The notes under the pieces were generated by a model. That model did not search any database, was not told the origin of the DNA, and saw only the letters and a program-made list of their open reading frames with translations. Positions 16,608 through 34,254 of a stretch of 64,000 bases of DNA are shown piece by piece (the first letter of the stretch is position 1; each line of letters begins with the position of its first letter). The translations under genes were made by a program, and so were the position numbers. Source of the stretch: Candidatus Rokuibacteriota bacterium. GTDB taxonomy: Bacteria > Methylomirabilota > Methylomirabilia > Rokubacteriales > CSP1-6. The DNA lies in assembly GCA_003221515.1 (NCBI GenBank), contig QHSI01000098.1, positions 102,961 to 166,960 of the forward strand. Reading direction: 5' to 3'.

Positions 16608-19160
16608 CTAGGCGAAGCGCGCCAGGTATCGCGCGAGCGCGGCGGATTCGCGCTCGCGCAGGCGCACCGCGATGCGGAGCTGCTCGAGGTACTGCTCGAG
16701 CACCTTGCCGCCGAAGTCGACGTTCCGCCCGCGGAAGAACGCGTGCACGTCGCGCTCCTGCTCGGGCGAGGCCAGGCCGATCACACCCTCGGCCATGCGC
16801 CGGAGGCCGGCCTTGGGGTATTGCCGGTCCATGGTGTCCCAGTTCGACTTCACGAAGTCCCAGGCCAGCTCCCGCCCGTAGACCGACATCAAGAGCGACC
16901 GGGCCACGAACGGCGCGTCCTGGGTCCGGATCTCGCCGTTGATCGTGCGCTCGAGCGTCTGGGTCAAGAGCTCGCGCTGCCGAAACGCGGTCAGCGCGTA
17001 GAGATACCGCTGCTCCTCCTGCGGCGTGGACGCGGACTTGAACCGCTTCAGGAAGTCGTCATAGCGTGCCGCGTCGCCCGCGTGCGCCAGCACGCCGATG
17101 AGGGCTGGGAGCACGTTGGGATCGACGTCGCCCGCCGCGCGTGCGTAGAGCTCGGCGGCCCGGCCCTGGACGCCGCGGTCGTCGCCGAGCACGGCGAGGG
17201 CGCGCACCAGATCGCCGCGGAGCTGGCGCGTCAGCTCGTCCTCGCCGGGCCGAGCCGTCCAGCCCAACTCCGCGAACGCGGGGGCCACGCGATCGCGCAC
17301 GAGCGCGGCCAGCGGTGGGCGGCTCTTCCCCTCGATGATTCGATTCAACGTGCCGAACGAGGCGATCAGGATCGACCACACGTTGCGGTCGCGCTCGGCG
17401 CGGAAGCGCGCCGTCAGGTCGAGATAGTCGGTGAGCTGCATGAGGCCGGCGACCGTCACCGCCCACGCGTCATTGACAAGGTTGAAGCGCTCGATGGCGG
17501 CCAACGTGGGCAGCGTCTTCAGGAGACGCTCCAGTAGCTCGCCGCTGTAGCGCACGCGATAGAACCCGTGGCCACCCTCGTTGACGAGCACCGCCTCGAG
17601 GCGCTCGGGCGCCGCCAGCCGCGTCTCGCTCTGGGCCAAGAGCCGCCGCTCGCTCGCCGCGCGGCCGGAGGCGCTGATCCGCACCTGGACGGGCACCTGC
17701 CAGCGCTGCTCGGTCGCGGGCGCCGGCCCCGCGAGGGGCTCGGGCAGGTACGTGAAGCGCTGCTGGCTCAGCACGAGCTCGCCACCCTCGAGCCGCGCGC
17801 TCACGAGCGGGTACCCGGGTTTGAAGATCCAGCCGTCCATGACCTCGGGGATCGGCTGGCGCGCGGCGAGGCCGAGCGCGGCCCAGAGGTCGCCGGTGTC
17901 GGCGTTGGCGTAGGCGTGCTTCCCTAGATAATCGCGGACGCCGTCGCGGAACACTGTCGGCCCCAGGTATTGCTCGAGCATCCGGAGGACGGAGGCGCCC
18001 TTCTCGTAGGTCAGCACGTCGAACATCGCGTCGGCGTCCCGCGGCGCCCCGACATGGAACTCGATCGGCCGCGTCGAGTGGAGCCCGTCCACCGAGAGCG
18101 CCGCCGCGCGCGAGACGCCGAACGTCGTCCACCGCTGCCACTCCGGCTTCCACGCGTCGACCGCCAGAATCTCCATGAACGTGGCGAAGGCCTCGTTGAG
18201 CCAGATACCGTTCCACCACGTCATGGTCACCAGGTCGCCGAACCACATGTGGGCGTTCTCGTGGGCGACCACGTCGGCGACGCGCTCGAGCTCGGCGTGC
18301 GAGGCGGCGCGCTCGTCCACCAGCAGCGCGGTCTCCCGGAAGGTGATCGCGCCGAGGTTCTCCATCGCCCCGGCGGCGAAGTCCGGGATCGCGAGCAGAT
18401 CGAGCTTGTCGCTCGGGTAGGGCAGGCCGTAGTAGTCCTCGAAGAAGCGGAGCGAGGCGACCCCGATCTCGTGACCGAACGCGGCGAGCCGTCGCTTGCC
18501 CGGCACACACCAGACGCGCACGGGTGTTGGGCCGACGTGGACCGGGTCCGTCGCCTCCAGCTCGCCGACGACGAAGGCCACCAGGTAGGTGGACATCTTC
18601 ATCGTGTCGGCGAAGGTGACGGCCTTGCGGCGGCCCTCGACGCGCTCGGACGCCACCGCCGTATTCGACACGGCCGTGAGCGTCGAGTCGATCACCAGCG
18701 TCACCGCGAACACGGCCTTGAACGCCGGCTCGTCCCAGCACGGGAACGCGCGACGCGCGTCCGTCGCCTCGAACTGCGTGGCGGCCATGAGCCGCGTGAC
18801 GCCGCTCGGGTCCTTGTAGCTCGACCGGTAGAAGCCGCGCAGCTTGTCGTTCAGCGTTCCGGTGAAGGCCAGCCGGAGCCGCCAGCGCCCGGGCGCGAGC
18901 GGCGACGGAAACGTGATCCGGCAGCGTTCCGCCGCCTCGTCCACGACGGGCGTCCCGCGCCGGGAGTCGCCGCGCTCGTTCACGACCGTGGCATCGCCGA
19001 TCGCCAGCTCGACCGCGTTGAGGACGATCTCCGACGTCGCCTCCGCGACGTCGAGCGTGATCGTCTCGTCGCCCGTGAAGGTGAGCGTCGTCAGATCGGG
19101 TTCGAGCCGAAGCTCGTAGCGAATCGGTGTCACGTGCCTCGGCAACCGGTGCTGATCCAA
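16608..19160 (-). CDS. M1 family metallo-aminopeptidase
   Basis: An 850-residue zinc aminopeptidase removing N-terminal residues from peptides. The start is placed at TTG 19160 because GGAG lies 7 bases upstream and the product begins LDQHRLPRHVTPIRYELRLEPDL, the usual first motif of the family. Key motifs: substrate N-terminus-binding GAMENLGAITFRE, zinc site HENAHMWFGDLVTMTWWNGIWLNEAFATF (HEXXH plus Glu 18 residues on) and the Tyr in DVLTYEKGASVLRMLE. The C-terminal ERAP1-like helical domain (VNEGGHGFYRVRYSGELL onward) is complete. No signal peptide, so cytoplasmic. The gene is divergent from the multihaem cytochrome gene, with 83 bases between them. Confidence 0.95.
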   Translation of the reverse strand: MDQHRLPRHVTPIRYELRLEPDLTTLTFTGDETITLDVAEATSEIVLNAVELAIGDATVVNERGDSRRGTPVVDEAAERCRITFPSPLAPGRWRLRLAFTGTLNDKLRGFYRSSYKDPSGVTRLMAATQFEATDARRAFPCWDEPAFKAVFAVTLVIDSTLTAVSNTAVASERVEGRRKAVTFADTMKMSTYLVAFVVGELEATDPVHVGPTPVRVWCVPGKRRLAAFGHEIGVASLRFFEDYYGLPYPSDKLDLLAIPDFAAGAMENLGAITFRETALLVDERAASHAELERVADVVAHENAHMWFGDLVTMTWWNGIWLNEAFATFMEILAVDAWKPEWQRWTTFGVSRAAALSVDGLHSTRPIEFHVGAPRDADAMFDVLTYEKGASVLRMLEQYLGPTVFRDGVRDYLGKHAYANADTGDLWAALGLAARQPIPEVMDGWIFKPGYPLVSARLEGGELVLSQQRFTYLPEPLAGPAPATEQRWQVPVQVRISASGRAASERRLLAQSETRLAAPERLEAVLVNEGGHGFYRVRYSGELLERLLKTLPTLAAIERFNLVNDAWAVTVAGLMQLTDYLDLTARFRAERDRNVWSILIASFGTLNRIIEGKSRPPLAALVRDRVAPAFAELGWTARPGEDELTRQLRGDLVRALAVLGDDRGVQGRAAELYARAAGDVDPNVLPALIGVLAHAGDAARYDDFLKRFKSASTPQEEQRYLYALTAFRQRELLTQTLERTINGEIRTQDAPFVARSLLMSVYGRELAWDFVKSNWDTMDRQYPKAGLRRMAEGVIGLASPEQERDVHAFFRGRNVDFGGKVLEQYLEQLRIAVRLRERESAALARYLARFA

Positions 19161-19243
19161 GCAAGATCTCCGAAAGCGATCAGGATGACTGCGGGCCTTA
19201 CTGTACTCCAGGACTCCATCGGTCACGCTATCATGCGACGTCG

Positions 19244-20449
19244 ATGCGACCGCACCTTCGCGCGGCGTGCGCCGCCATGCTGATCGTGCTGCTCGGCGCC
19301 TCCGCCCTCGGCGCCGACGCGATCCAGGATTTCCTCCGGCGCCACTGGAGCCGACCGCTCGCGCCCCAGGGGCCGCCGCCCGCGCGGTACTCTCCGCTCG
19401 AAGCCTCGCTCCACCCGGACGCGTGCGGCTCCTGTCATCCCGCGCAGCTGGCCGACTGGCGCGAGAGCCTGCATGCCGCCGCGATGGGCCCGGGCGTCGC
19501 CGGACAGCTGATCGAGATGCGGGAGAGCGACCCGTCATCGGCGCTCTCGTGCTTCACCTGCCACGCGCCGCTCGCCGAGCAGGCGCCGATCGTCGCGCAG
19601 GGGAACACGGCGGTCGCCAACCCGGAGTACGACGCGGTGCTGGGCGGTCAGGGGCTGCCGTGCGCCGGCTGCCACGTGCGCCGTCACGAGCGCTTCGGCC
19701 CACCGCGGCGCGACGGCTCGCTGGCGAGCGGCGCCCCGCGCGAGACGCTGCCCCACGGCGGCGTCACCCGCACGCCGGCGTTCCTCAAGTCGGAGTTCTG
19801 CCGCGACTGTCACCAGTTCACATCCGACGGCTTTGCGCTGAACGGCAAGCTCCTCGAGAACACCTACAACGAATGGAAGGCGAGCCGCTTCGCGCGCGAG
19901 GGCGTGCAGTGCCAGGACTGCCACATGCCGGTGCGTCGCCATCGATGGCGCGGGATCCACGACGCGGAGATGGTGCGCTCCGGGCTCACGATCAGCGCGA
20001 AGGCGGATGCGCCACGCTATCAACCTGGCGACGTCGCGGTCGTCCGGCTGCGCGTGACCAGCACGCGCGTCGGCCACGCGTTTCCGACCTACGTCACGCC
20101 GCGAGTCGTCCTGAGCGCCGAGCTGGTGGACGGCGCCGGCCAATCGATTGCCGGCAGCCGCCAGGAGAAGATCATCGGTCGCGAGGTCGCCCTCGATCTC
20201 TCGCGCGAAGCGTTCGACACGCGGCTCGGGCCGGGCCGGAGCGCGACGCTCGAGTACCGGATCAAGGTGCCGGCGCGCGGAGCGCGCGCGCGCCTGGCCG
20301 TGGTCGTCGAGCCCGACGCCTTCTACGCCGCGTTCTTCGGGGTGCTGCTGCGGCAGGGCGCCGGGCGCGGCGAGGCGCAGATTCGACAGGCGCTCGACGC
20401 CGCGCGCCGCTCGCCCTTCACCGTGTTCGAGCGCGAGCTGCCGCTGTAG
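19244..20449 (+). CDS. Five-haem c-type cytochrome, cytochrome c-554-like
   Basis: A 401-residue periplasmic protein. The signal peptide AACAAMLIVLLGASALGA is followed by five CXXCH haem sites: CGSCH, CFTCH, CAGCH, CRDCH and CQDCH (residues about 63 to 228). The C-terminal ~170 residues are haem-free and beta-rich (YQPGDVAVVRLRVTSTRVGHAFPTYVTPRVVLSAEL). The N-terminal part resembles the cytochrome c-554/multihaem family that moves electrons from N or S compounds to the respiratory chain. The partner cannot be seen here. TATCAT lies 9 bases before the ATG, with no Shine-Dalgarno. Confidence 0.88.
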   Translation: MRPHLRAACAAMLIVLLGASALGADAIQDFLRRHWSRPLAPQGPPPARYSPLEASLHPDACGSCHPAQLADWRESLHAAAMGPGVAGQLIEMRESDPSSALSCFTCHAPLAEQAPIVAQGNTAVANPEYDAVLGGQGLPCAGCHVRRHERFGPPRRDGSLASGAPRETLPHGGVTRTPAFLKSEFCRDCHQFTSDGFALNGKLLENTYNEWKASRFAREGVQCQDCHMPVRRHRWRGIHDAEMVRSGLTISAKADAPRYQPGDVAVVRLRVTSTRVGHAFPTYVTPRVVLSAELVDGAGQSIAGSRQEKIIGREVALDLSREAFDTRLGPGRSATLEYRIKVPARGARARLAVVVEPDAFYAAFFGVLLRQGAGRGEAQIRQALDAARRSPFTVFERELPL

Positions 20450-20546: not shown

Positions 20547-22163
20547 CTACCAGCCGAGCGCGGCGCCGTCGGCGCGCGGATCGGAGCCGCCGGTCAGTCC
20601 GTCGGACTCGATTCTGATCACCTGCGCGTGGCCCATGAGGTCGCTCCATTCCTCGACGACCTCCACGTCGTGTCCGCGGGCTCGCAGTGACTCGGTGACG
20701 CCGTCGCCGAAGCGCGTCTCGAGCCGCAGCGCCCCGGTGGCCTCGCCCCACGTGCGCCCGTAGAGCCAACGGGGCGCCTCGACCGCCGCCTGCGGCCCGA
20801 GGCGCCGATCGAGGATGCGCGTGACCAGCGCCGCTTGCGTCTGCGGTTGGCCCTCGCCGCCCATCGTGCCGTAGACCAGGCGCGGACGCCCATCCACCAG
20901 ATACATGGACGGGATCAGCGTGTGGGCGGTCTGCTTGCGCGGCGCCAGGCGGTTCACGTGCGCGGGGTCCAGCGAGAAGGACGCGCCGCGGTTCTGCAAG
21001 AGGATCCCGGTGTCTCCGGCGATCACGCCCGAGCCGAACTCCCAATAGAGGCTCTGGATCAGGGACACCGCGTTGGCGTCCGCGTCGGCGGTGACGATCG
21101 CGATCGTGTCGCCGTCGAGCGCGGCGCCGGGCGCGGGTCGGGCCGCGCGTCGCGAGATCATCCGGCGTCGGTCGGCCAGGCGCGCCCCATCGAGGCAGTG
21201 CGCGACCGGCACCTCGACGAACGTCGGGTCGGCCAGGTAGCGATCACGATCCTCGAACGCGAGCTTCGTCGCCTCGACGACCAGATGCACGTAGTCGGCC
21301 TCGTCCAGCGCGGCGAGATCGAAGGCTTCGAGGAGCGACAGGATCGCGAGGGCCGCGAAGCCCTGCGTCGGCGGCGGAAAGCTCGCAGCCTCGCCGCCAC
21401 GATAGGAAACGCGCAGCGGCTCGACCCACTGGGCCCGGTGCGCCGCCAGGTCGTCGGGGGTCAGCGGGCTACCGGCGGCCGCCGCGCCCTGCGCGATCCG
21501 CCGGCCGAGCGCGCCGCGATAGAACGTCTCGGCGCCGCCGCGCGCGATCTCCTCCAGTGTCGCCGCGAGCTCCGACTGCACGAAGCGCTCTCGCGCCAGG
21601 AGCGCCGGATGATAGACCCGCCAGAGGGGGGCGCGCAGCTCGGCCGGCGCGGCGGCGCCGAACAGGTCGTCGGCGTCCGCGGTCTCGCGCCGCTGCCCCC
21701 GTGAGGGCGCGAAGCCGTCGCGGGCGCAGGTGATCCCGCTCGTGAAGAGCTCGGGCCATGCGATCGGCGACCCCAGCGCGTCGCGGCTCAGCGCGTGAGC
21801 TTCCGACCATCCCGACACGACGCCGGGGACCGTCAGCGCCGCCGCGCCGCCGCGTACCGGGATCGCGGCGCCGAAGCGCCGCCGGTAGGTCTCGAGGTCG
21901 GCGGCCGCCGCCGAGCGGCCGGCGGCGTTCAGCGCGCGCAGCGTGCCGCGCCGCCCGTCGTGGATCAGCCAGAAGCTGTCGCCCCCCACGCCGTTCATGT
22001 GCGGATAGACGACCGCGACGGTTGTCGCGGCGGCGATGGCGGCATCGACGGCGTTGCCGCCCTGCCGGAGGATCGCCACGCCCGCTTCGGCGGCCAGCGC
22101 GTGCGGCGCGGCGACGACCCCGCGCGGCCATCGGCGTTCGGCCCAGCGGGTGGTGGCGCTCAC
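20547..22163 (-). CDS. ggt: Gamma-glutamyltransferase family protein
   Basis: A 538-residue Ntn-hydrolase that cleaves or transfers gamma-glutamyl groups (glutathione and related). The large-subunit start MSATTRWAERRWPRGVVAAPHALAAEAG and GGNAVDAAIAAATTVAVVYPHMNGVGGD are standard. The autocatalytic processing site is the Thr in LDGDTIAIVTADADANAVSLIQS. Downstream, GSGVIAGDTGILLQNRGASFSLDP and YGTMGGEGQPQTQ are the expected small-subunit motifs. No signal peptide is visible, so this is a YwrD-like cytoplasmic member. A TATCAT hexamer lies exactly 6 bases before the GTG start, pointing to a leaderless message. Confidence 0.92.
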   Translation of the reverse strand: MSATTRWAERRWPRGVVAAPHALAAEAGVAILRQGGNAVDAAIAAATTVAVVYPHMNGVGGDSFWLIHDGRRGTLRALNAAGRSAAAADLETYRRRFGAAIPVRGGAAALTVPGVVSGWSEAHALSRDALGSPIAWPELFTSGITCARDGFAPSRGQRRETADADDLFGAAAPAELRAPLWRVYHPALLARERFVQSELAATLEEIARGGAETFYRGALGRRIAQGAAAAGSPLTPDDLAAHRAQWVEPLRVSYRGGEAASFPPPTQGFAALAILSLLEAFDLAALDEADYVHLVVEATKLAFEDRDRYLADPTFVEVPVAHCLDGARLADRRRMISRRAARPAPGAALDGDTIAIVTADADANAVSLIQSLYWEFGSGVIAGDTGILLQNRGASFSLDPAHVNRLAPRKQTAHTLIPSMYLVDGRPRLVYGTMGGEGQPQTQAALVTRILDRRLGPQAAVEAPRWLYGRTWGEATGALRLETRFGDGVTESLRARGHDVEVVEEWSDLMGHAQVIRIESDGLTGGSDPRADGAALGW

Positions 22164-22701: not shown

Positions 22702-22737
22702 GTGAATGTGAAAGATTCGGTGCGAGAAATGGCGCCG

Positions 22738-23031
22738 ATGAGCAGGCCCACCCTGGCGTCTCGAGTCACCCTCAACTCGGACATCGCATTCCGTGAGCTG
22801 GACGGCGAGCTGGTAATCCTCAACCTCGAGACCGGCATCTATTTCGGACTCGACCCGGTGGGTGCGCGGACCTGGACGCTCATCGAACACCACGGATCCC
22901 TCGGCGCGGTGTTGGAGGTGCTCTGCTCCGAATACGACGCCCCTCCTGCCGTGCTCGAGCGCGACCTGCTCGAGCTCGTCGACCAGCTGTGCGCGAAAGG
23001 ACTGACGCGTGTCGCCGCGAGCTCCGCGTAG
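22738..23031 (+). CDS. Lasso peptide leader-recognition protein B1 (PqqD-like RRE)
   Basis: A PqqD-fold RiPP recognition element that binds the precursor leader and hands it to the B2 protease. Typical features: SRVTLNSDIAFRELDGELVILNLETGIYFGLDPVGARTW and a C-terminal helix pair (LERDLLELVDQLCAKGLTRV). The ATG at 22738 gives a family-like N-terminus (MSRPTLASRV). A GTG at 22702 and an ATG at 22729 are alternatives, and none has a good ribosome-binding site. It overlaps the B2 gene by 23 bases, and split B1/B2 proteins are the rule in this class of cluster. First gene of the putative operon. Confidence 0.88.
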   Translation: MSRPTLASRVTLNSDIAFRELDGELVILNLETGIYFGLDPVGARTWTLIEHHGSLGAVLEVLCSEYDAPPAVLERDLLELVDQLCAKGLTRVAASSA

Positions 23032-23518
23032 CGCAGTCCTGGGGCGCGCGCTCCACCGCGCCGCGGCGCTTTCCCGAGACGACTGGGCCGTCTTCGCTCG
23101 TGCGCTGGGGCTCCTGTCGCTCGTGAGCCTCGGTCTCAAGGTCGCCGGGCTCCGGCGCACGCTCGCCCTGGTCGATTCGCGAGCCGAGGCGAGGCGTCGC
23201 TGCGCCGGCGTCGATCCTCGTGGCGCGACGCGCATCGCCTGGCTCGTGGAGATCGCCGCTCGCTGCTGCCTGCCACGGCCCACGTGTCTCACGAAGGCGC
23301 TCGTCGTCTTCTCGCTCCTCAAGCGCCGCGGGCTGCCGGCGGAAGTGGTTCTCGGGGTCACGAAGGCCCGAGGGCCGCTCGAGGGGCACGCCTGGGTTCA
23401 GCTCGGGGAGGGCGCCGTCGTCGGCGATCCGGAGCCCGTGAGGTACACCACGCTCTGCCGCATCCCCGCCTTGCCGCCCTCTCCCACGACCACCGCCGCG
23501 CCCGAGCGCGCGCCGTGA
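23009..23518 (+). CDS. Lasso peptide leader protease B2 (transglutaminase-like)
   Basis: A 169-residue cysteine protease of the lasso B2 family that removes the leader so the macrolactam can form. The catalytic Cys is Cys93 in PTCLTKALVVFSLLKRRGLPAEVVLGV, His is His127 in LEGHAWVQL, and the likely Asp is Asp140, 13 residues later. An N-terminal membrane-like helix (FARALGLLSLVSLGLKV) is usual for B2. It starts at GTG inside the B1 gene and its TGA overlaps the GTG of the cyclase gene, so B1-B2-C should be translated as a coupled unit. Confidence 0.92.
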   Translation: MSPRAPRSAVLGRALHRAAALSRDDWAVFARALGLLSLVSLGLKVAGLRRTLALVDSRAEARRRCAGVDPRGATRIAWLVEIAARCCLPRPTCLTKALVVFSLLKRRGLPAEVVLGVTKARGPLEGHAWVQLGEGAVVGDPEPVRYTTLCRIPALPPSPTTTAAPERAP

Positions 23519-25425
23519 GCGGTCTCGCCGGCGTGTACGGCCTCGACGGTCGTCCACTCGACCGCGCGCTGCTCAGGAGGATGACCGAGGCGGTCGCGCA
23601 CCGCGGCCCGGACGGCGAGGGCTTCTGGAGCGACGGGCCGATCGGCCTCGGGCATCGCAGCTCGCGCACGACGCCGGAGTCGTTGGATGAGAAGCAGCCG
23701 CTGCTCGACGAGAGCGGAACGCTGTGCCTCGTGCTCGACGGACGGGTCGACAACCGCGCGGAGCTTGCCGCATGGCTGCGAGCGGCCGGCGTCCATCTTC
23801 GAACCGACACCGACGCGGAGCTGGTGCTGCAGTCGTATGCCCTGTGGGTCGACGGCTGCGCCTCGCGGATCGTCGGCGATTTCGCGTTTGCGATCTGGGA
23901 TCGCCGGCGCCGCCGGCTCTTCTGCGCGCGGGACCCGCTGGGGATCCGGCCGTTTTACTACCGAGATGACGGACGGACCTTCATCTGGGGCTCGGAGCTG
24001 CGCCAGCTTCTCGATACCTTGCCGCTCGGCCCCGAGCCGAACGAAGGAGTCGTGGGCGAGTACCTGAGCAGTCGCCTGGTCGACATCCACGAGACCCTCT
24101 ACCGCGGCATCCTGCGTTTGCCGCCGGGCCACGCGCTGACCGTCGAGGAGGGTCGCGTTCGCACGACGCGCTACTTCGACGTGGATCCGCGCCGCGAGAT
24201 CCGGTATCGCTCCGACGGCGAGTACGCGGAGCACTTCCTCGAGATCTTCCGCGAGGCGGTGCGCTGTCGGCTCCGGAGCGTCACCCCCGTCGCCGTGTTC
24301 CTGAGCGGAGGGCTCGACTCCTCGTCGATCGTCGGCGTCGCCGCCCGGCTCGCTCGCGACGGGCACGTACCTGGAGGGGGATTCGAGGCGTACTCCCTCG
24401 ACTTCACGCAAGCCGAGGCGGACGAGAGGGGCTGGGTCGACGACGTCGCGAGGATGTGGAAATTGCCGGTGCGTCACGTGAGCGCCGACGACGCCGTCCC
24501 GCCCTCGCTGGCCGAGCAGGTCGCCGATCTTCGGGACTTTCCGGATCTCCCCAACACGCACCCCTGGGGACTCCTGCTTGCCGAGGCGCGTCGACGTGGC
24601 GCTCGCACCGCGCTCTGGGGCTACGGCGGTGACGAGTGGCTCACCGGCGACACTGCGCACTGCGCCGATCTGCTCCGCCGGATGCGTCTGGTCGCGCTCG
24701 CGCGTCGGGTCCAGGACGATATTCGCTCCTTGACTTCGCTGGGCGGCCCGCCAGTCGGCCTGGCAGATCCAATCAGATGGTCGGTGATGCCGCTGCTTCC
24801 GCGCCCGGCCAAACGGCTCGTGCGGCGCTTCCGACGCTGGGACGTCCCGGACTGGATCGCGCCCGACTTCGCCCGACGCGTCGGACTCCAGGAAAGGCTC
24901 GCGCCGGACGTCCCCACACCTCGGTTCCCGACGTTCGCCCAGCGCGCCATCCACCGCCAGCTGCAGAGCGGCTGGAGCGCGGCCGAGTACGAAATGGTGG
25001 ACCGGTTCGAGACGCGCCGGTCCATGGAGAGCCGGTTTCCCTTCAACGATCGGCGGCTCATCGAATTCGCCCTGGCGCTGCCCGAGGCGCAGCGCTGGCG
25101 AGGCACCGAGACGAAGTTCATCCTGCGCCAGGCGGCGGGGGATCTGCTTCCCTCCTCCATGGCACACCGGAAGACCAAAGGTGACTTCACGTACCTCTTC
25201 GCTGCGTCGCTCGAGCGCGAGGGCGTCGACGAGACGTTCGCCCGGCTCCGCCTGGAGGCCGACGGGTTCGTGCGCGGCGACCGGGTGCGGGAGATGTATC
25301 GGCGTTTCCGCGGCGGCGATCTCGGATGCCTGGGTATCCTCTGGATGATCCTCGCGACGGAGTGGTGGTATCGAACCATGTTTCCCGCGTCACGCGTGGC
25401 GCGGGCCGACGGGGAGACACGATGA
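23515..25425 (+). CDS. Lasso cyclase C (asparagine-synthetase-like macrolactam synthetase)
   Basis: A 636-residue AsnB homologue that adenylates the side-chain carboxylate of the acidic ring residue and closes it onto the new N-terminus. The start is GTG 23515, overlapping the B2 stop (GTGA). An upstream-extended frame exists but lies within B2. The product begins MSGLAGVYGLDG: the glutaminase nucleophile Cys2 of true asparagine synthetases is replaced by Ser, as expected if no glutamine hydrolysis is needed. The ATP-pyrophosphatase loop SGGLDSSS is at about 264-271. GYGGDEWLTGD and the C-terminal KTKGDFTY are also present. Its stop overlaps the ATG of the precursor gene. Confidence 0.93.
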   Translation: MSGLAGVYGLDGRPLDRALLRRMTEAVAHRGPDGEGFWSDGPIGLGHRSSRTTPESLDEKQPLLDESGTLCLVLDGRVDNRAELAAWLRAAGVHLRTDTDAELVLQSYALWVDGCASRIVGDFAFAIWDRRRRRLFCARDPLGIRPFYYRDDGRTFIWGSELRQLLDTLPLGPEPNEGVVGEYLSSRLVDIHETLYRGILRLPPGHALTVEEGRVRTTRYFDVDPRREIRYRSDGEYAEHFLEIFREAVRCRLRSVTPVAVFLSGGLDSSSIVGVAARLARDGHVPGGGFEAYSLDFTQAEADERGWVDDVARMWKLPVRHVSADDAVPPSLAEQVADLRDFPDLPNTHPWGLLLAEARRRGARTALWGYGGDEWLTGDTAHCADLLRRMRLVALARRVQDDIRSLTSLGGPPVGLADPIRWSVMPLLPRPAKRLVRRFRRWDVPDWIAPDFARRVGLQERLAPDVPTPRFPTFAQRAIHRQLQSGWSAAEYEMVDRFETRRSMESRFPFNDRRLIEFALALPEAQRWRGTETKFILRQAAGDLLPSSMAHRKTKGDFTYLFAASLEREGVDETFARLRLEADGFVRGDRVREMYRRFRGGDLGCLGILWMILATEWWYRTMFPASRVARADGETR

Positions 25426-25580
25426 ACGAGGAGCCGACTCCGGACGCGACGCTCGGACCTTCGAAGAAGCCCTACGCGAAGCCCCAATTGATCGAGTACG
25501 GACCCGTCGAGAAGCTGACGCACTCGGGCACGCAGAGCCTCGGCGACGCGGGCCCCATGATGATGCCGGGGTGCCTATGA
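25422..25580 (+). CDS. Lasso peptide precursor (52 aa)
   Basis: The ATG overlaps the cyclase stop (ATGA). The leader fits the RRE-binding pattern YxxPxLx3Gx5Tx exactly: Tyr18, Pro21, Leu23, Gly27, Thr33 (KKPYAKPQLIEYGPVEKLTH). With Thr at the -2 position, cleavage follows His34. The predicted 18-residue core is SGTQSLGDAGPMMMPGCL. Asp8 gives an eight-residue ring closed on Ser1 and a ten-residue tail. A start at Gly36 (seven-residue ring) is the only other sensible option. Odd points: Ser as first residue, a Met triplet where the steric plug should be, a lone Cys at position 17 and no Lys/Arg/Trp/Tyr/Phe in the core. Confidence 0.9.
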   Translation: MNEEPTPDATLGPSKKPYAKPQLIEYGPVEKLTHSGTQSLGDAGPMMMPGCL

Positions 25581-25618
25581 TGGAGCGCCGCGCCAGCATG
25601 CCAATGGCGTCGGTCTGA
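25577..25618 (+). other. 13-codon mini-ORF bridging precursor and methyltransferase genes
   Basis: ATG ATG GAG ... TGA encodes MMERRASMPMASV. Its first codon overlaps the precursor stop (ATGA) and its TGA overlaps the ATG of the methyltransferase (TGATG). A ribosome leaving the precursor could therefore walk through to the next gene. It may be a coupling device and not a functional peptide, or simply chance. Confidence 0.35.
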
Positions 25619-26778
25619 TGTCACTCGTCCTCGACGAGCATCGTCTGTACCTCGCTGACACGGCCCGGGTGTCCGCCTTCCGGCGGGCTATCGAGGAGGT
25701 CGTCACGCCCGGCGACGTGGTGCTGGACCTCGGTGCGGGCACCGGGATCCTCGGACTGATGGCCTGTCGCGCCGGCGCCAAGCGGGTCTATGCGGTCGAC
25801 GAGGGGCCGATCATCGGTCTGGCGCACGAGGTCGCCGCGGCCAACGGGTTCCAGGACCGGATCACCCACGTCAAGGGGCTCTCCACCCGAGTGGAGCTGC
25901 CGGAGCGAGTCGACGTGGTTCTCGCCGACCAGATCGGGCGGTTCGGATTCGAGTCAGGCATTCTCGAGTACTTCGGGGACGCTCGGGCGCGCTTCCTGAA
26001 GTCGGCCGGCGTCATGGTGCCGAGCGAGATCGGGCTCGTCGTGGCGCCGGTCGAGTGTCCCGACCTCTTCGGGCAGGTCGAGTTCTGGGGGCGGATGCCC
26101 GCTGGCTACGACTTCCGCCCGGCGCTCGCGATCGCCGCGAACACCGGTTACCCGGCCAGGTTCGACCCGGCTCACCTGCTCGGAGCTCCTGCGCGGGCCA
26201 TCTCGCTCACGCTCTCGACGGCGGCGCCGGCCGCCGCTCTGAGCTCCGAGGTTGTCCTCGTGGCAGAGCGGCCAGGGACCCTTCACGGGATCGGCGGCTG
26301 GTTCGACGCGAAGCTCTCACCGGGTGTCACACTCACCAACTCCCCGCTCGCGGCGCGGCCGATCCTCCGGAGACAGGTTTTCTTTCCGATTGCCCGCCCG
26401 GTCGCGCTCGACGAGCACGACCAGATCCGCGTAAGGCTGCGGATCCTCCCCGCCGCGGCGATCGTGACCTGGACCGTCGACGTCAAGGCCGGGCGCGACG
26501 GGCGCGGACCCGCCCCGGAGAGCAAGGGCCGGTTCGCGCATTCCACCTTCCAGGGCCTGCTCCTCTGCAAAGAAGACCTGGAGCGGACCGATCTCCACTT
26601 CGTGCCGCGACTGTCCCCTTGGGGCGAAGCGCGGCGGTCCGTTCTCGAGTTGTGCGATGGCCGGCGGGCCCTCGGCGAAATCGAGCGCGAGGTCCACGGT
26701 CGCCACCCAACCCTCTTCCGCTCGCATGCGGAAGCGGCCGCTTTCGTCACCGAGGTCGTCACGCGCTACGCGGTGTAG
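25618..26778 (+). CDS. PRMT-like methyltransferase with C-terminal PqqD-like domain
   Basis: A 386-residue SAM-dependent enzyme. Motif I VVLDLGAGTGILGLMACRAGAKRVYAVDEG (35-63) and the following region are clearly of the protein-arginine-methyltransferase fold. In the double-Glu loop the first Glu position reads Asp (ADQIGRFGFESG: Asp104, Glu112), and the THW loop is replaced by AHSTFQG. So arginine may not be the substrate. The last ~45 residues (SVLELCDGRRALGEIEREVHG ... AAAFVTEVVTRYAV) look like a PqqD-type RRE, which could dock this enzyme on the precursor leader. It sits directly after the precursor gene, so it is a probable lasso tailoring enzyme. The core has no Arg or Lys, leaving the methylated atom open. 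Confidence 0.8.
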   Translation: MSLVLDEHRLYLADTARVSAFRRAIEEVVTPGDVVLDLGAGTGILGLMACRAGAKRVYAVDEGPIIGLAHEVAAANGFQDRITHVKGLSTRVELPERVDVVLADQIGRFGFESGILEYFGDARARFLKSAGVMVPSEIGLVVAPVECPDLFGQVEFWGRMPAGYDFRPALAIAANTGYPARFDPAHLLGAPARAISLTLSTAAPAAALSSEVVLVAERPGTLHGIGGWFDAKLSPGVTLTNSPLAARPILRRQVFFPIARPVALDEHDQIRVRLRILPAAAIVTWTVDVKAGRDGRGPAPESKGRFAHSTFQGLLLCKEDLERTDLHFVPRLSPWGEARRSVLELCDGRRALGEIEREVHGRHPTLFRSHAEAAAFVTEVVTRYAV

Positions 26779-26784
26779 TTGGGC

Positions 26785-27732
26785 GTGGCCTCGTATTCCG
26801 CCTTTGGGCTTGTCGTCTCCAGTAACGTGCCGCTGCCGGGACTCCCTCGAGTCCCCGACGAGCCGCCCGATTGCGTGTTCGAATCGCGTCGCGGCCCGAT
26901 CAGCGAGCGTTCGACCGGTCGCCGCCATGCGCTTCGCCTGCCGAATGGCGCGATTTCTCTGGTCATCGGACGCTGCCGATCGGGATTCCTCGTTCGGTTT
27001 CCCGGTCTCGCCCTCTTCCTCGTGTCGCGCGCCGGAGACCGTGTGCGCGGTGCACCGTCGCGAGGCGCGCGCCCGGCGATCGTCGCGCATCTCTTCCTGT
27101 CCCAGGTGCTGCCTCTGGCGCTGAGCCGCCAGGGCCGGCTCGTCATGCACGCGAGCGCCGTGGCGACCCCGCACGGTGCCGTCGCGTTTCTCGGAGCCGC
27201 CGGCCAGGGAAAGTCGACGCTGAGCGCGAGCTTTGTGCGTCGATCGTTCCCCCTCCTCACGGACGATGCGCTCCTGCTCATCGAGAACGGGACGACGCTG
27301 ACGGGCGTGCCTAGCTACCCCGAGATTCGGCTGCAGCCCGACGTGCTGGCGGTGCTCGGGAACGGTGGCCTCGAGGTGCACGACGTCGAGCATCGGGCTG
27401 GCAAGAAGCGGCTCAGGCTCGATCGCGGATCACGGTTATTCAGTCGAGAGCCCGTGCCGGTTCGGCGCATCTACGTCCTTGGCTGCGCGGAGCCGTCCGC
27501 ACGCTCTGGTGCCGCGACCATCTCTGCGGTCACGCCGCGCGAGGCGTTCATCGAGCTCGTCAAGCACACCTATCGGCTGGATCTCGACGACCGAAGCCGT
27601 TTGCGCGACGAGTTTGACTCGATCGGCCGCATCGCGGCGCGCCCGGCTCTCGTCTACCGGCTTGCCGTCCCGCGCGATCTGTCGGAGTTACCCGCGGTCC
27701 ACGCGGTGATCCTGGATCATTGCGGCTCGTGA
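26785..27732 (+). CDS. HprK-like serine kinase associated with lasso peptide clusters
   Basis: A 315-residue protein of the HPr-kinase-like family that accompanies paeninodin-type lasso clusters, where such kinases phosphorylate the C-terminal Ser of the precursor. The start is GTG 26785 (MASYSAFGLVVSSNVPLPGL, a typical first motif); a TTG two codons earlier directly follows the methyltransferase stop. The conserved VMHASAV, Walker A GAAGQGKST and the LLTDDALLLI Asp pair are all present. Here the predicted core ends in Leu, with Ser/Thr only at 1, 3 and 5, so the phosphate acceptor is not obvious. Its stop overlaps the GTG of the next gene. Confidence 0.88.
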   Translation: MASYSAFGLVVSSNVPLPGLPRVPDEPPDCVFESRRGPISERSTGRRHALRLPNGAISLVIGRCRSGFLVRFPGLALFLVSRAGDRVRGAPSRGARPAIVAHLFLSQVLPLALSRQGRLVMHASAVATPHGAVAFLGAAGQGKSTLSASFVRRSFPLLTDDALLLIENGTTLTGVPSYPEIRLQPDVLAVLGNGGLEVHDVEHRAGKKRLRLDRGSRLFSREPVPVRRIYVLGCAEPSARSGAATISAVTPREAFIELVKHTYRLDLDDRSRLRDEFDSIGRIAARPALVYRLAVPRDLSELPAVHAVILDHCGS

Positions 27733-28892
27733 GGGGAGCGGGCCTGCCCTCGACGGATATCGCGCTGTCGCGCGAGACGCGCGTGCTCGTCGGCGCAGTC
27801 CGCTGGTTCGTCGGCGCCGCCACCGAGGACGATCTCGTCGGGCTGCTCGGCGGCGGCGGCCTGGACTGGTCCAGGCTCTTCGAGCAGGCGGAGCGAGAGG
27901 GGATCACTGGAATCGTCGCCCGAGCCCTCGATAGCCTTTCGCCGCGTGAGGGTTTGGCCCTGCCCCTCGATCGCTGGCGTGCCGCGACGCGGGCCGTCGC
28001 CGTCAGCAACATGACGTCGCTGTCCGAGCTGGCGGCGCTCCGAGCGATGCTGCGCCGGGGCCACCGCCCGATGATTTTGTTGAAGGGCGCGGCCCTGCTC
28101 GACGACGAGTATCGAGGGCATCTGGGCCTGCGACCCCTGGGCGATATCGATCTGCTGTTGCGCCCATCGGACCTGCCTGCGGTCACCGGATGGCTGCGGG
28201 ACCGGGGCTACAAACCCGTCTCGTCGTCATCCCCGTTCTTCTCCCGAGGCGTGGTCTCGTTCGACCTCCACACGGAGATCGTCGGGAGCGAGTGGGTCGG
28301 CCTCAAAGGGCGCGCCTTTCGCCTGGATCCTGCGGCCCTCTGGCGCGAAGCCATACGACTCGAGCCACACGATCCGACTACGCTCGTCCTCTCGCGTGTC
28401 CACCTGCGGCTCCACCTGGCCGTGCACGCCCTCAAGCACTCGTACTCCCGTTTGATCTGGCTGGTCGACCTTGCGCTCGTGCTGCGAGACGCCCCCTGGG
28501 CGTCTCTGCTGGGGGAGGCTCGAGCCGCAGGGGCCATGCGACCGCTCGCCTACGCCGTCTCCGCCCTCGACACGCTGCTGGGTCGTCTGGAGATGCCGGA
28601 CGCAGTGCGCGGAGAGCTGCCAGCCCTCAGCGCGCTCGAGCGGGCGTTCATCCGCCTCGTCGCGAGTCGGAGGGGGATGGAGACTCCTGGTGAGCTGTTG
28701 GTGGCGTTCTCGATCCCGGGCGCGATCGGGAAGGCCGCGTACCTGGCGGAGCTCGTCTTCCCCAAGCGACCAGTCCTGGCGCGCCACTACCCCATGACTC
28801 CGTCGTGGCTTCTCTATCCGCGCCGCGTGCTACGCCTAGTGAGCCTCAGCCTTCAGGAGGGCACGAAGCTCTGGCACCGGCGCGGAGGGTGA
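27729..28892 (+). CDS. NTP_transf_5-type nucleotidyltransferase of the lasso cluster
   Basis: A 387-residue member of the nucleotidyltransferase family 5 (PF14907-like) that recurs in kinase-containing lasso clusters. The catalytic fold is seen in ILLKGAALLDDEYRGHLGLRPLGDIDLLLRPSD, with the GDIDLL acidic pair. The rest is helical, with FDLHTEIVGSEWVGLKGRAF and LAVHALKHSYSRLIWLVDLALVL. It may transfer a nucleotide to the peptide or to the phosphate added by the kinase; its role is not established. The start is taken at GTG 27729, which overlaps the kinase stop (GTGA); a TTG three codons upstream is the alternative. Last gene of the cluster; no ABC exporter follows. Confidence 0.85.
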   Translation: MRGAGLPSTDIALSRETRVLVGAVRWFVGAATEDDLVGLLGGGGLDWSRLFEQAEREGITGIVARALDSLSPREGLALPLDRWRAATRAVAVSNMTSLSELAALRAMLRRGHRPMILLKGAALLDDEYRGHLGLRPLGDIDLLLRPSDLPAVTGWLRDRGYKPVSSSSPFFSRGVVSFDLHTEIVGSEWVGLKGRAFRLDPAALWREAIRLEPHDPTTLVLSRVHLRLHLAVHALKHSYSRLIWLVDLALVLRDAPWASLLGEARAAGAMRPLAYAVSALDTLLGRLEMPDAVRGELPALSALERAFIRLVASRRGMETPGELLVAFSIPGAIGKAAYLAELVFPKRPVLARHYPMTPSWLLYPRRVLRLVSLSLQEGTKLWHRRGG

Positions 28893-30709: not shown

Positions 30710-30789
30710 CCGCGTGCTCCTGGCGATTGGGGTTTGCGCCTGTCCGATGCCCCCCGTATCATACGAAGGGCCGCTTCGAGAGGAGACTC

Positions 30790-33700
30790 ATGGCGATCAA
30801 GCGCGACTTCACCCTGGACGCCAAATATCGTCTGGACGAGGGGCAGATCTTCCTCTCGGGCATCCAGGCGCTGGTGCGCTTGCCGCTCGACCAGCACAAA
30901 GCCGACAAGCGTCGCGGGCTCAACACCGCCACGCTGATCTCCGGATATCGCGGCTCGCCGCTCGGCGGCCTCGATCTCACGCTCGAGCGCAATCCCGAGC
31001 TGCTGCGCGAGCACAACGTCGTCTTCATCTCGGGCGTCAACGAAGACCTCGGCGCGACGGCGGTGTACGGCAGCCAGCTCGCCAACCTGTTTCCGAAGCC
31101 CAAGTACGACGGCGTCCTCGGCATGTGGTACGGCAAGGGGCCCGGCGTGGACCGGACGGGCGACGTATTCAAGCACGCGAACTACGCGGGGGTCTCGCGC
31201 AACGGCGGCGTGCTGGCGCTCGGCGGCGACGACCCGCTGTCCAAGTCGTCCACGATCCCGTCGCACTCCGAGGTGGCGTTCTACGACGCGCTGTTCCCGG
31301 TGCTCTTCCCCGGCAACACGCAGGAGATCCTCGACCTGGGCCGGCTCGGCTTCGAGCTCTCGCGCTACTCCGGGCTCTGGGTGGGTTTCAAGATCGTGAC
31401 CAACGTCGCCGACGAGATCGGCACCGCCGAGGTCGCGCCCGATCGCCTCGTGATCGCCGATCCCGGCTTCCTCTACGAGGGCAAGCCGTGGCACCAGAAA
31501 CAGAACCCGTTGCTGATGCCGCCGTGGGGGCTCGAGACCGAGCGCGAGATCCACTACGGCCGGCTCGAGGCGGCGAAGGCCTTCGCGGCGACGCACAAGC
31601 TGAACCGGATCACCGTCCCGACGCCGAACGCGTGGCTCGGCATCGCGGCGCCCGGCAAGACCTACTACGACCTCCGCGAGGCGCTCGCCGAGCTCGGCCT
31701 CGACGACGCCGCGCTCGGCCATCACGGGATCCGCCTGCTGAAGATCGGGATGCTGTTCCCGATGGAGCCGACGATCGTCCGCGAGTTCGCCGCGGGCCTC
31801 GAGGAGCTCCTGGTGATCGAGGAGAAGCGCGCGTTCTGCGAGCTGTTCATCCGCGACGTCCTCTACAACCAGGCCGTGCGCCCGCTCGTGTTCGGCAAGC
31901 GCGACGAGCGCGAGCGCCCGCTGGTGCCCGCCGACAGCGAGCTCGACGCTGATCGCATCGCTCAGATCGTGGCCTCGCGCCTCGAGCGACGTCTCCACCT
32001 CGAGTCGATCACCGCGCGCGTGGCGCTCCTCGAGGCGCTGCGCCAGCGGCCCGCGTCCCTCACGCTCGCGCGCCAGCCCTACTTCTGCTCGGGCTGCCCG
32101 CACAACCGCTCGACCGTGCTGCCGGAAGGCTCGATGGCCAGCGCCGGCATCGGCTGCCACGGGATGGCGTTGCTGATGGATCGCCGGACGATGGGGCTGA
32201 CGCACATGGGCGGCGAGGGTGTCCAGTGGGTCGGCATCGCGCCGTTCACCGAGACGAACCATCTCTTCCAGAACCTGGGCGACGGCACCTTCTTCCACTC
32301 GGGCTCGCTGGCGATCCGCCAGGCGATCGCGGCCGGCACCAACGTCACCTACAAGATCCTCTACAACTCCGCGGTGGCGATGACGGGCGGCCAGGACGCC
32401 GCCGGCGCGATGCCGGTGCCCGAGCTGACGCGCTCGCTGACGGCCGAAGGCGTCAAGCGCATCGTCGTGATGACCGACGAGCCGGACAAGTATCCGGCCG
32501 GCACCGTGTGGGATTCGGGCGTCGAGGTGTGGCACCGCGACCGGCTCGACGAGGCGCAGCGCCTGCTGCGCGACATTCCGGGCGTCACCGCGCTCGTCTA
32601 CGACCAGCGGTGCGCCGCGGAAAAACGCCGGCTGCGCAAGCGGGACCGGCTGCCCGACCCATCGATGCGGGTGTTCATCAACGAAGCCGTCTGCGAAGGG
32701 TGCGGCGACTGCGGCGTGAAGAGCAACTGCCTCTCCGTGCACCCGGTCGAAACGGAATTCGGGCGGAAGACGCACATTCATCAGTCATCCTGCAACAAGG
32801 ACTACTCGTGCCTGAAGGGCGATTGTCCATCGTTCGTCACGATCGTGCCGCTGGGTCCACCGCAGAAGAAGGCGCGTCGCGTCTTCAAGGTCGACCAGAC
32901 GCTGCCCGAGCCCGCGCTCAAGGTCCCGCGAGACGCTAATATTTTCATGATGGGCATCGGCGGCACCGGCGTCGTCACCGTGAACCAGGTGCTGGGCACC
33001 GCCGCGCTGCTGGACGGCAAGCACGTGCGCGGCCTCGACCAGACCGGGCTCAGCCAGAAGGGCGGGCCGGTCGTCTCGCACCTGAAGATTTTCGAGCACG
33101 CCCCGGAAGGTTCCAACAAGATCTCGGCCGGCTCCGCCGACTGCTATCTCGGCTTCGACATCCTCGTCGCGACCTCGCCACAAAACCTCGATCACGCGCG
33201 CTCCGATCGCACGATCGCGGTGATCTCGACCAGCGAGGTGCCGACCGGCGCGATGGTGACGTCGACGACCGTGGAGTTCCCGGAGACGAACGGGCTCGTC
33301 ATGTCGATCGACCGCGTCACGCGCAAGGACGAGAACGTCTACCTCGACGCGCTCGGCTTGGCCGAGATGCTCTTCGACGACCACATGGCCGCCAACATGA
33401 TCGTGCTCGGTGCCGCCTGGCAGGCCGGCGCGATCCCGGTCAGCGCCATCGCGATCGAGGAGGCGATCGTGCTCAACGGCGTCTCGGTGCCGATGAACAG
33501 CCACGCGTTCCGGGTCGGCCGCCGGCTCGTCGCCGATCCGGCGTGGGCGCAGAGTCTCACCCGGCGCCGCGTGGGCGCGATCGAGGACGCGCCGGCGCTC
33601 TCCGCGGAGGCGCGGCAGGTGGTGGACGCCGCCGGCGCCGCCGGCGAGCTGAAGCGGCTGCTCGAGGTCCGGGTGCCCGAGCTGATCGCGTATCAGAACG

Positions 33701-34254
33701 GGTCGTACGCGCGGGAGTACGTGAGCTTCGTCACGCGCGTCCGTCAGGCGGAGGCCGCCGGCGTGCCCGGTGAGTCGCGCCTCTCCGAAGCGGTGGCGCG
33801 CTATCTGTTCAAGCTCATGGCGTACAAGGACGAGTACGAGGTGGCGCGCCTGCACCTCAAGAACGACATCGCCCACGCGCTGGCCGCGGAGTACCCGGGC
33901 GGCGTGAAGCTCAGCTACAACCTGCACCCGCCGTTCCTCCGCGCGCTCGGCCTGACGCAGAAGATCAAGCTGGGCACGTGGTTCGACCCGATCTTCGGCC
34001 TCCTCGCCCGCCTGAAGGGGTTGCGCGGCACCGCGCTCGACCCGTTCGGGCGCGCCGAGGTGCGGCGCGTCGAGCGCCAACTCGCCGGCGAGTACCGCGG
34101 GCTCGTCGAGAAGTCACTGGTCGGCCTCTCGCCCGAGACGCACGCGCGGGCGGTGAAGCTGGCCGAGCTGCCCGACCTGATCCGCGGCTACGAAGACATC
34201 AAGCTCCGCAACGTCCAGCGCTTCCGGGACGAGGTTCGCGCGCTCGGCTTCTGA
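30790..34254 (+). CDS. Indolepyruvate ferredoxin oxidoreductase, fused large form
   Basis: A 1154-residue pyruvate-ferredoxin-oxidoreductase-superfamily enzyme that decarboxylates aryl- or branched-chain 2-oxoacids to acyl-CoA using TPP and iron-sulfur clusters. The start at [15 protein letters not shown] follows AGAGGAG. In order: TPP pyrimidine-binding half ([30 protein letters not shown]), TPP half ([45 protein letters not shown]), a cysteine-rich cluster region ([13 protein letters not shown] ... [15 protein letters not shown], about 634-690) and a gamma domain ([38 protein letters not shown]). The C-terminal DUF6537-like part is complete. The length matches single-polypeptide family members. 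Confidence 0.96.
   Translation: [1154 protein letters not shown]

Follow-up and report, generated by a model that had tools for sequence, protein, structure and literature searches.

A lasso peptide gene cluster of Candidatus Rokubacteria with a conserved Met/Cys-Leu tail and a PRMT-fold methyltransferase

A soil Candidatus Rokubacteria genome that carries a lasso-peptide gene set contains a short open reading frame whose product ends in a run of Met residues and a single Cys near the C-terminus. Does this frame encode a lasso precursor, and what might the genes around it do to its tail? We examined it within the surrounding 64,000-nucleotide stretch of DNA (the window) and in relation to 95 genomes of the same class. 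The locus at 25422–25580 is a lasso precursor and lies within a genuine lasso gene cluster. Taken as a whole, the data are probably best explained by a lasso cluster that makes a tailored product with a Met/Cys tail.

The precursor gene and its cluster

The precursor gene A runs from an ATG at 25422 to a stop codon at 25578–25580 on the plus strand and encodes 52 residues, MNEEPTPDATLGPSKKPYAKPQLIEYGPVEKLTH (leader) followed by SGTQSLGDAGPMMMPGCL (core). An earlier note on this DNA had described an exact YxxPxLx3Gx5Tx leader and a core at 25524–25577 (+), and both are borne out: the stretch YAKPQLIEYGPVEKLTH matches the motif exactly and is its sole match in all six frames of the window, and the core was correctly read with exact coordinates. 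Sixty windows of equal length simulated with a first-order Markov model gave no match. Relative to the proposed core, the motif's Tyr is at -17, its Pro at -14, its Leu at -12 and its Thr at -2, a spacing that agrees with the demarcation given in the available part of PMC10368454. The NCBIfam model lasso_leader_L3 scores 19.1 bits against a cut-off of 19, a bare pass by 0.1 bit. The features of the cluster are as follows.

22702..23031 (+): B1, PqqD-family leader-binding protein (RRE); Pfam PqqD 1.3e-16, NCBIfam lasso_PqqD_Bac 3e-11 (below cut-off)
23009..23518 (+): B2, transglutaminase-like leader peptidase; NCBIfam lasso_biosyn_B2 82.4 bits (cut-off 33), Cys93 and His127 seen by eye
23515..25425 (+): C, asparagine-synthase-like lasso cyclase; lass_lactam_cya 456.9 bits (below cut-off 525), asn_synth_AEB 272.6 (cut-off 267.1), SGGLDSS loop intact
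25422..25523 (+): A, 34-residue leader containing YAKPQL and Thr(-2); exact motif and lasso_leader_L3
25524..25577 (+): A, core SGTQSLGDAGPMMMPGCL with predicted ring 1–8 and tail 9–18; leader motif spacing and Asp8 conservation
25618..26778 (+): MT, SAM methyltransferase of PRMT fold, arginine pocket altered, short helical domain at the C-terminus; PRMT6 sequence and model matches
26779..27732 (+): HPrK-like lasso precursor kinase; HprK_rel_A 5.5e-8 (below cut-off), catalytic motif
27720..28892 (+): NTP_transf_5 nucleotidyltransferase-like protein (NT); Pfam PF14907 1.4e-39, GDID motif

The gene order is thus B1 (PqqD), B2, C, A, MT, HPrK-like kinase and NTP_transf_5, all on the plus strand. 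B1, B2 and C are adjacent; B2 scores above its NCBIfam cut-off, while the lasso-specific models for B1 and C score below theirs. The three tailoring-enzyme genes that follow the core lasso genes were absent from the earlier note. With 150 of 218 candidates scored, ABC_tran (PF00005) has 137 matches in the genome, all on other contigs, and an ABC exporter was thus not found on that of the window.

The flanks hold a multihaem cytochrome c554-type protein (19127–20446, ≈2 kb upstream of the cluster), an adjoining gamma-glutamyltranspeptidase on the minus strand (20547–22163) and, downstream, a large 2-oxoacid:ferredoxin oxidoreductase-like protein (POR, DUF6537; 30727–34251).

Relatives of the precursor and conservation of its core

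Homologs were sought in the 95 class genomes with the precursor alignment (17/95 at E 0.01), with MT (21/95 at 1e-6, seven of which have at least 55% identity and are called close MT here) and with the B2 family (27/95). Precursors beside lasso genes were read from 37 regions and three earlier loci, giving a table of 21 precursors (22 with the window) that takes in only precursors fitting the search pattern. Within the genus, the precursor is conserved in five of nine genomes, the window's included; the other four cores are TGTATLGDAGPMMMPCL (G008), SGTANHGDAGPMMMP (G002), TGTQNLGDAGPMMRACL (G006) and SGTQTLGDAGPMMMTCL (G001). Further relatives were identified in G021, from another genus of the same family (GSATVGSDGGSGMMNMQCL), and in G087, which belongs to a different family of the class and has TSGRSGGGTDSSMTMVCI if the motif is applied strictly. 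A search for related precursors with a Met/Cys tail, as the earlier note had proposed, found them in the window's own genus and in two further genera.

The Met/Cys-Leu tail is conserved in these relatives. All seven precursors of the close-MT clusters (7/95 genomes) have at least two tail Met residues, and six of the seven have a Cys and end in Cys-Leu or Cys-Ile. Among the 15 other tabulated lasso precursors Cys is found in none and at least two Met in two; one of the 15, from G045, has a 49% identical MT stretch of ≈46 residues on the opposite strand, which was not counted as close MT. Searches with the precursor alignment gave no relatives in viral contigs, and the precursor had no plasmid match at E 10. 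MT matched three loci among genome contigs, all from Rokubacteria, in a sample that essentially does not cover other phyla; the placement of the window's genome in Candidatus Rokubacteria follows from these named relatives.

The exception within the genus is G002 (L012:4662 onward), a natural variant without Cys-Leu in which the neighboring cyclase and MT are kept. Its core stops after MMMP, which compared with G008 looks like a loss of six bases. A selenocysteine reading of the in-frame TGA can be dismissed, since the apparent loss gives an ordinary stop at this point.

The Ser1-Asp8 ring put forward in the earlier note fits the new sequences: Asp8 is present in all five genus members and in G021, and thus in six of the seven close-MT precursors, window included. 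That note had staked the ring on homologs carrying an acid at core positions 7–9, which holds for these six but not for G087, where the strict rule puts the first acid at position 10. Were G087 cleaved two residues further on, both Thr(-2) and Asp8 would be restored, and the core would be GRSGGGTDSSMTMVCI. Genus members start the core with Ser or Thr and G021 with Gly; the available part of PMC6784204 lists Cys, Ser, Ala and Trp as alternatives to Gly. Thr3 is invariant in the five genus members and replaced by Ala in G021, and G087 has Ser at this position only if the cut is shifted. The only hydroxyl residues of the window core are Ser1, Thr3 and Ser5, and Arg is absent.

The window tail, AGPMMMPGCL, has no residue larger than Met. 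Its Met triplet and lack of charge, both pointed out before, stand for the window core but not for G006, where the third Met is replaced by Arg. The lone Cys is likewise confirmed, but its position 17 is particular to the window, which has one extra Gly; in every precursor that retains the Cys, exactly one residue follows it. With a single core Cys, internal disulfides as in lasso classes I, III or IV are ruled out.

Several other lasso loci of the class were noted in passing. L117:3042, L117:3208 and L116:8579 (Methylomirabilota, with lasso genes) are precursor-like ORFs with a good leader and a core of ≈6–8 residues without a tail, e.g., QASIDTIE. In the precursors of L087, L101, L102 and L111, read by the strict motif, positions 7–9 hold no acid but position 10 does (L101 also has Asp1), hinting at a shifted cleavage or a larger ring. 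Two same-genus precursors (L101:3253 and L102:7877) end in Ser (SNAS and TNVS), as in the C-terminal-Ser kinase type, and G006 thus has two lasso clusters. L103, L105 and L109 each have a tandem pair of cyclase-like genes in a single cluster. The G087 cluster includes an ABC transporter ATPase and an ABC-2 membrane protein, and in it (L084:3264–8135) the cyclase is preceded by two B1–B2 pairs together with a TPR protein and an ORF resembling methyltransferases.

The pN/pS ratio was summed over the 10 pairs of the five genus sequences as raw proportions from few sites and with the window's extra Gly codon left out. The leader has the lowest value, 0.07, followed by the tail with 0.28, the ring with 0.58 and the N-terminal extension with 0.74. 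The low leader and tail values relative to the N-terminal extension indicate a real gene under constraint, and the ring varies more than the tail. The C-terminal Leu is kept by four genus members and has a different codon in each (CTA, CTC, CTG and TTG), and the Cys is encoded by TGC in the genus and TGT in G021 and G087.

MT is the most conserved cluster protein between the window and G021/G087 (56–60% identity), compared with 46–47% for B1, 40–49% for C, 31–39% for B2, 31–38% for the HPrK-like kinase and 26–27% for NT. In the cyclase tree the genus, G021 and G087 group together (support 0.92). The G087 kinase does not follow this pattern: it lies apart from the genus and G021 kinases, beside that of G085, which belongs to the same genus as G087. 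A, C and MT therefore look co-inherited and the kinase exchanged. The cyclase tree rules out counting the tail–MT association as independent events, so Fisher values computed for it at lineage level do not stand as significance; the group does not have three independent origins.

The putative tailoring enzymes

MT matches PRMT6 among PDB sequences (1.8e-26). Its AlphaFold model (pLDDT 84.7) also has PRMT6 as best Foldseek match (E 8.7e-30; TM 0.65 by query and 0.76 by target), so that sequence, predicted model and Foldseek all place it in the PRMT fold. The likeness in fold and sequence covers residues 8–279, but SEWMGY of PRMT6 is ADQIGR in MT, with the second Glu displaced by one, and the THW loop is lost. 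The double-Glu loop and the THW loop of protein arginine methyltransferases have a role in arginine binding, and in the alignment MT has neither in its usual form. An [AS]DQIGR loop is common to the MT clade members that cover the region. An acidic pair (Asp, Glu) remains, and the sequence may thus still be compatible with arginine binding; the window core, however, offers no arginine. The C-terminal domain resembles PqqD weakly: Pfam PqqD is not found in the window protein and reaches 0.0019, below cut-off, in the homolog from G017.

In G002, MT is retained on two contig pieces (92 and 83%). More distant MTs (34–36%) are found in the clusters of G017 and G005, where the precursors have no Cys. 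Thirteen plasmid records matched MT, all with less than 60% identity, and the one examined, from Tropicibacter, has no annotated lasso gene.

The window kinase contains the motif H-x14-G-x2-G-x-GKS-x15-DD, and the BsfK-spaced His...GxxGxGKS...DD catalytic motif is present in all eight kinases checked, window included. BsfK phosphorylates Ser3 of the core and accepts Thr3, aided by B1, according to the available part of PMC10368454; the window core has Thr3. PadeK and PsmK use a C-terminal Ser (PMC9266682, available part), an acceptor that is ruled out for the window core, which ends in Cys-Leu.

The proposed product, its alternatives and known systems

In the proposed pathway, the kinase and NTP_transf_5 would act on the precursor ahead of leader removal and cyclization. 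B1 would grip the leader at YAKPQL, B2 would cleave after His34, and C would link the Ser1 amine to Asp8 with the tail enclosed. The product would be a lasso of 18 residues, eight of them in the ring, with AGPMMMPGCL as its tail. We hold the ring and the cut with high confidence, and the tail would be threaded through the ring. As no bulkier residue is on offer, Met12-Met13 and their neighbors are the likely steric lock, so the Met residues may act as plugs, as suggested earlier. The evidence for the pathway is the gene content and order, the exact and non-random leader, the homologs in the genus and two further genera, the constraint on the tail, the Met-rich tails beside every close MT and the high conservation of MT relative to the other cluster proteins.

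The modifications are graded less firmly. That the kinase phosphorylates Thr3 in the ring, as its BsfK-spaced motif and the invariance of Thr3 in the genus would suggest, seems to us evenly balanced; extension of the Thr3 phosphate by NTP_transf_5 is a more tentative step. Methylation of the tail end by the PRMT-fold enzyme, at the Cys thiol or the C-terminal carboxylate, is plausible at somewhat short of even chances. Since the single Cys allows no internal disulfide, its thiol, free or methylated, probably contributes to the activity. We regard as rather doubtful the fuller proposal that a PRMT-fold enzyme was repurposed to methylate the conserved Met-Met...Cys-Leu/Ile tail of a lasso at a site other than arginine (Cys thiol or C-terminal carboxylate), and that the resulting lasso, rich in thioethers, may be a ligand for a soft metal. 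Ala at position 3 in G021 and the lack of an ABC exporter match on the window's contig among the 150 (of 218) candidates scored count against the pathway, and the distant MTs beside Cys-less precursors in G017 and G005 against the MT–tail pairing.

Could the product simply be an ordinary, unmodified class II lasso, its Met/Cys-Leu tail inherited without special function while the tailoring genes act elsewhere or decay? The cyclases unite the clade just as MT does, so common ancestry may be all that ties the tail to MT, and G002 keeps MT after losing Cys-Leu, so the Cys may not be the MT target; many clusters of the class also combine an HPrK-like kinase with varied tails. Yet the kinase motif and MT are intact across the genus, the last Leu changes synonymously, and the tail, at pN/pS 0.28, is less variable than the ring (0.58), all of which make this reading unlikely, though it deserves serious weight.

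The lack of an aromatic or bulky plug raises the prospect of a branched, unthreaded macrolactam, the window tail having no residue larger than Met. We consider this improbable, as the gene set is that of threaded lasso peptides and an 8-residue ring tolerates smaller plugs. Slimmer still are the chances of a lasso that binds a soft, Cu(I)-like metal through its tail Met thioethers and Cys thiol. M-x-M and Met-Met motifs do bind Cu(I), and the Met-rich tail with its terminal Cys is kept in three genera, but one Met is Arg in G006, the Cys is missing from G002, and Pfam found no dedicated metal-uptake or resistance family among eight cluster-region and six flanking proteins, the multihaem cytochrome ≈2 kb upstream notwithstanding. 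A lasso with a tailored Met/Cys tail thus remains our preferred reading.

Literature searches found nothing linking lasso peptides with PRMT or with Methylomirabilota, or on methionine-rich or copper-linked lasso peptides; for Rokubacteria and lasso peptides they gave two papers. No comparable Met/Cys tail was seen in the lasso literature on kinases and nucleotidyltransferases, C-terminal cysteine, Acidobacteria, RODEO/tailoring, streptomonomicin/Ser1 or chalkophores/metallophores, and the available parts of two reviews (PMC9266682, PMC8498205) show no PRMT-fold methyltransferase for lasso peptides.

Among known systems, as described in the accessible parts of the sources, the Bradymonas bsf cluster (BsfA/B1/B2/C/K/N; PMC10368454) shares the split B1/B2, the kinase, the nucleotidyltransferase, a ring closed on Asp8 and a kinase target at ring residue 3 (Thr in the window). 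It has Gly1 and Ile(-2) where the window has Ser1 and Thr(-2), and the window differs further by the extra PRMT-fold methyltransferase and the Met/Cys-Leu tail, and in that no ABC exporter was found close to its cluster. Paeninodin and pseudomycoidin (PadeK, PsmK, PsmN; PMC9266682, PMC8498205) also have an HPrK-like kinase and, for pseudomycoidin, a nucleotidyltransferase, but their kinases use a C-terminal Ser, whereas the window tail has no Ser or Thr. Lassomycin-like clusters with StspM (PMC9266682) likewise contain a methyltransferase, from which the window MT is set apart, by description, through its PRMT fold. Compared with these systems, the cluster would extend the chemistry of lasso peptides by a Met-rich tail with a single terminal Cys, and their tailoring by a PRMT-type methyltransferase fold.
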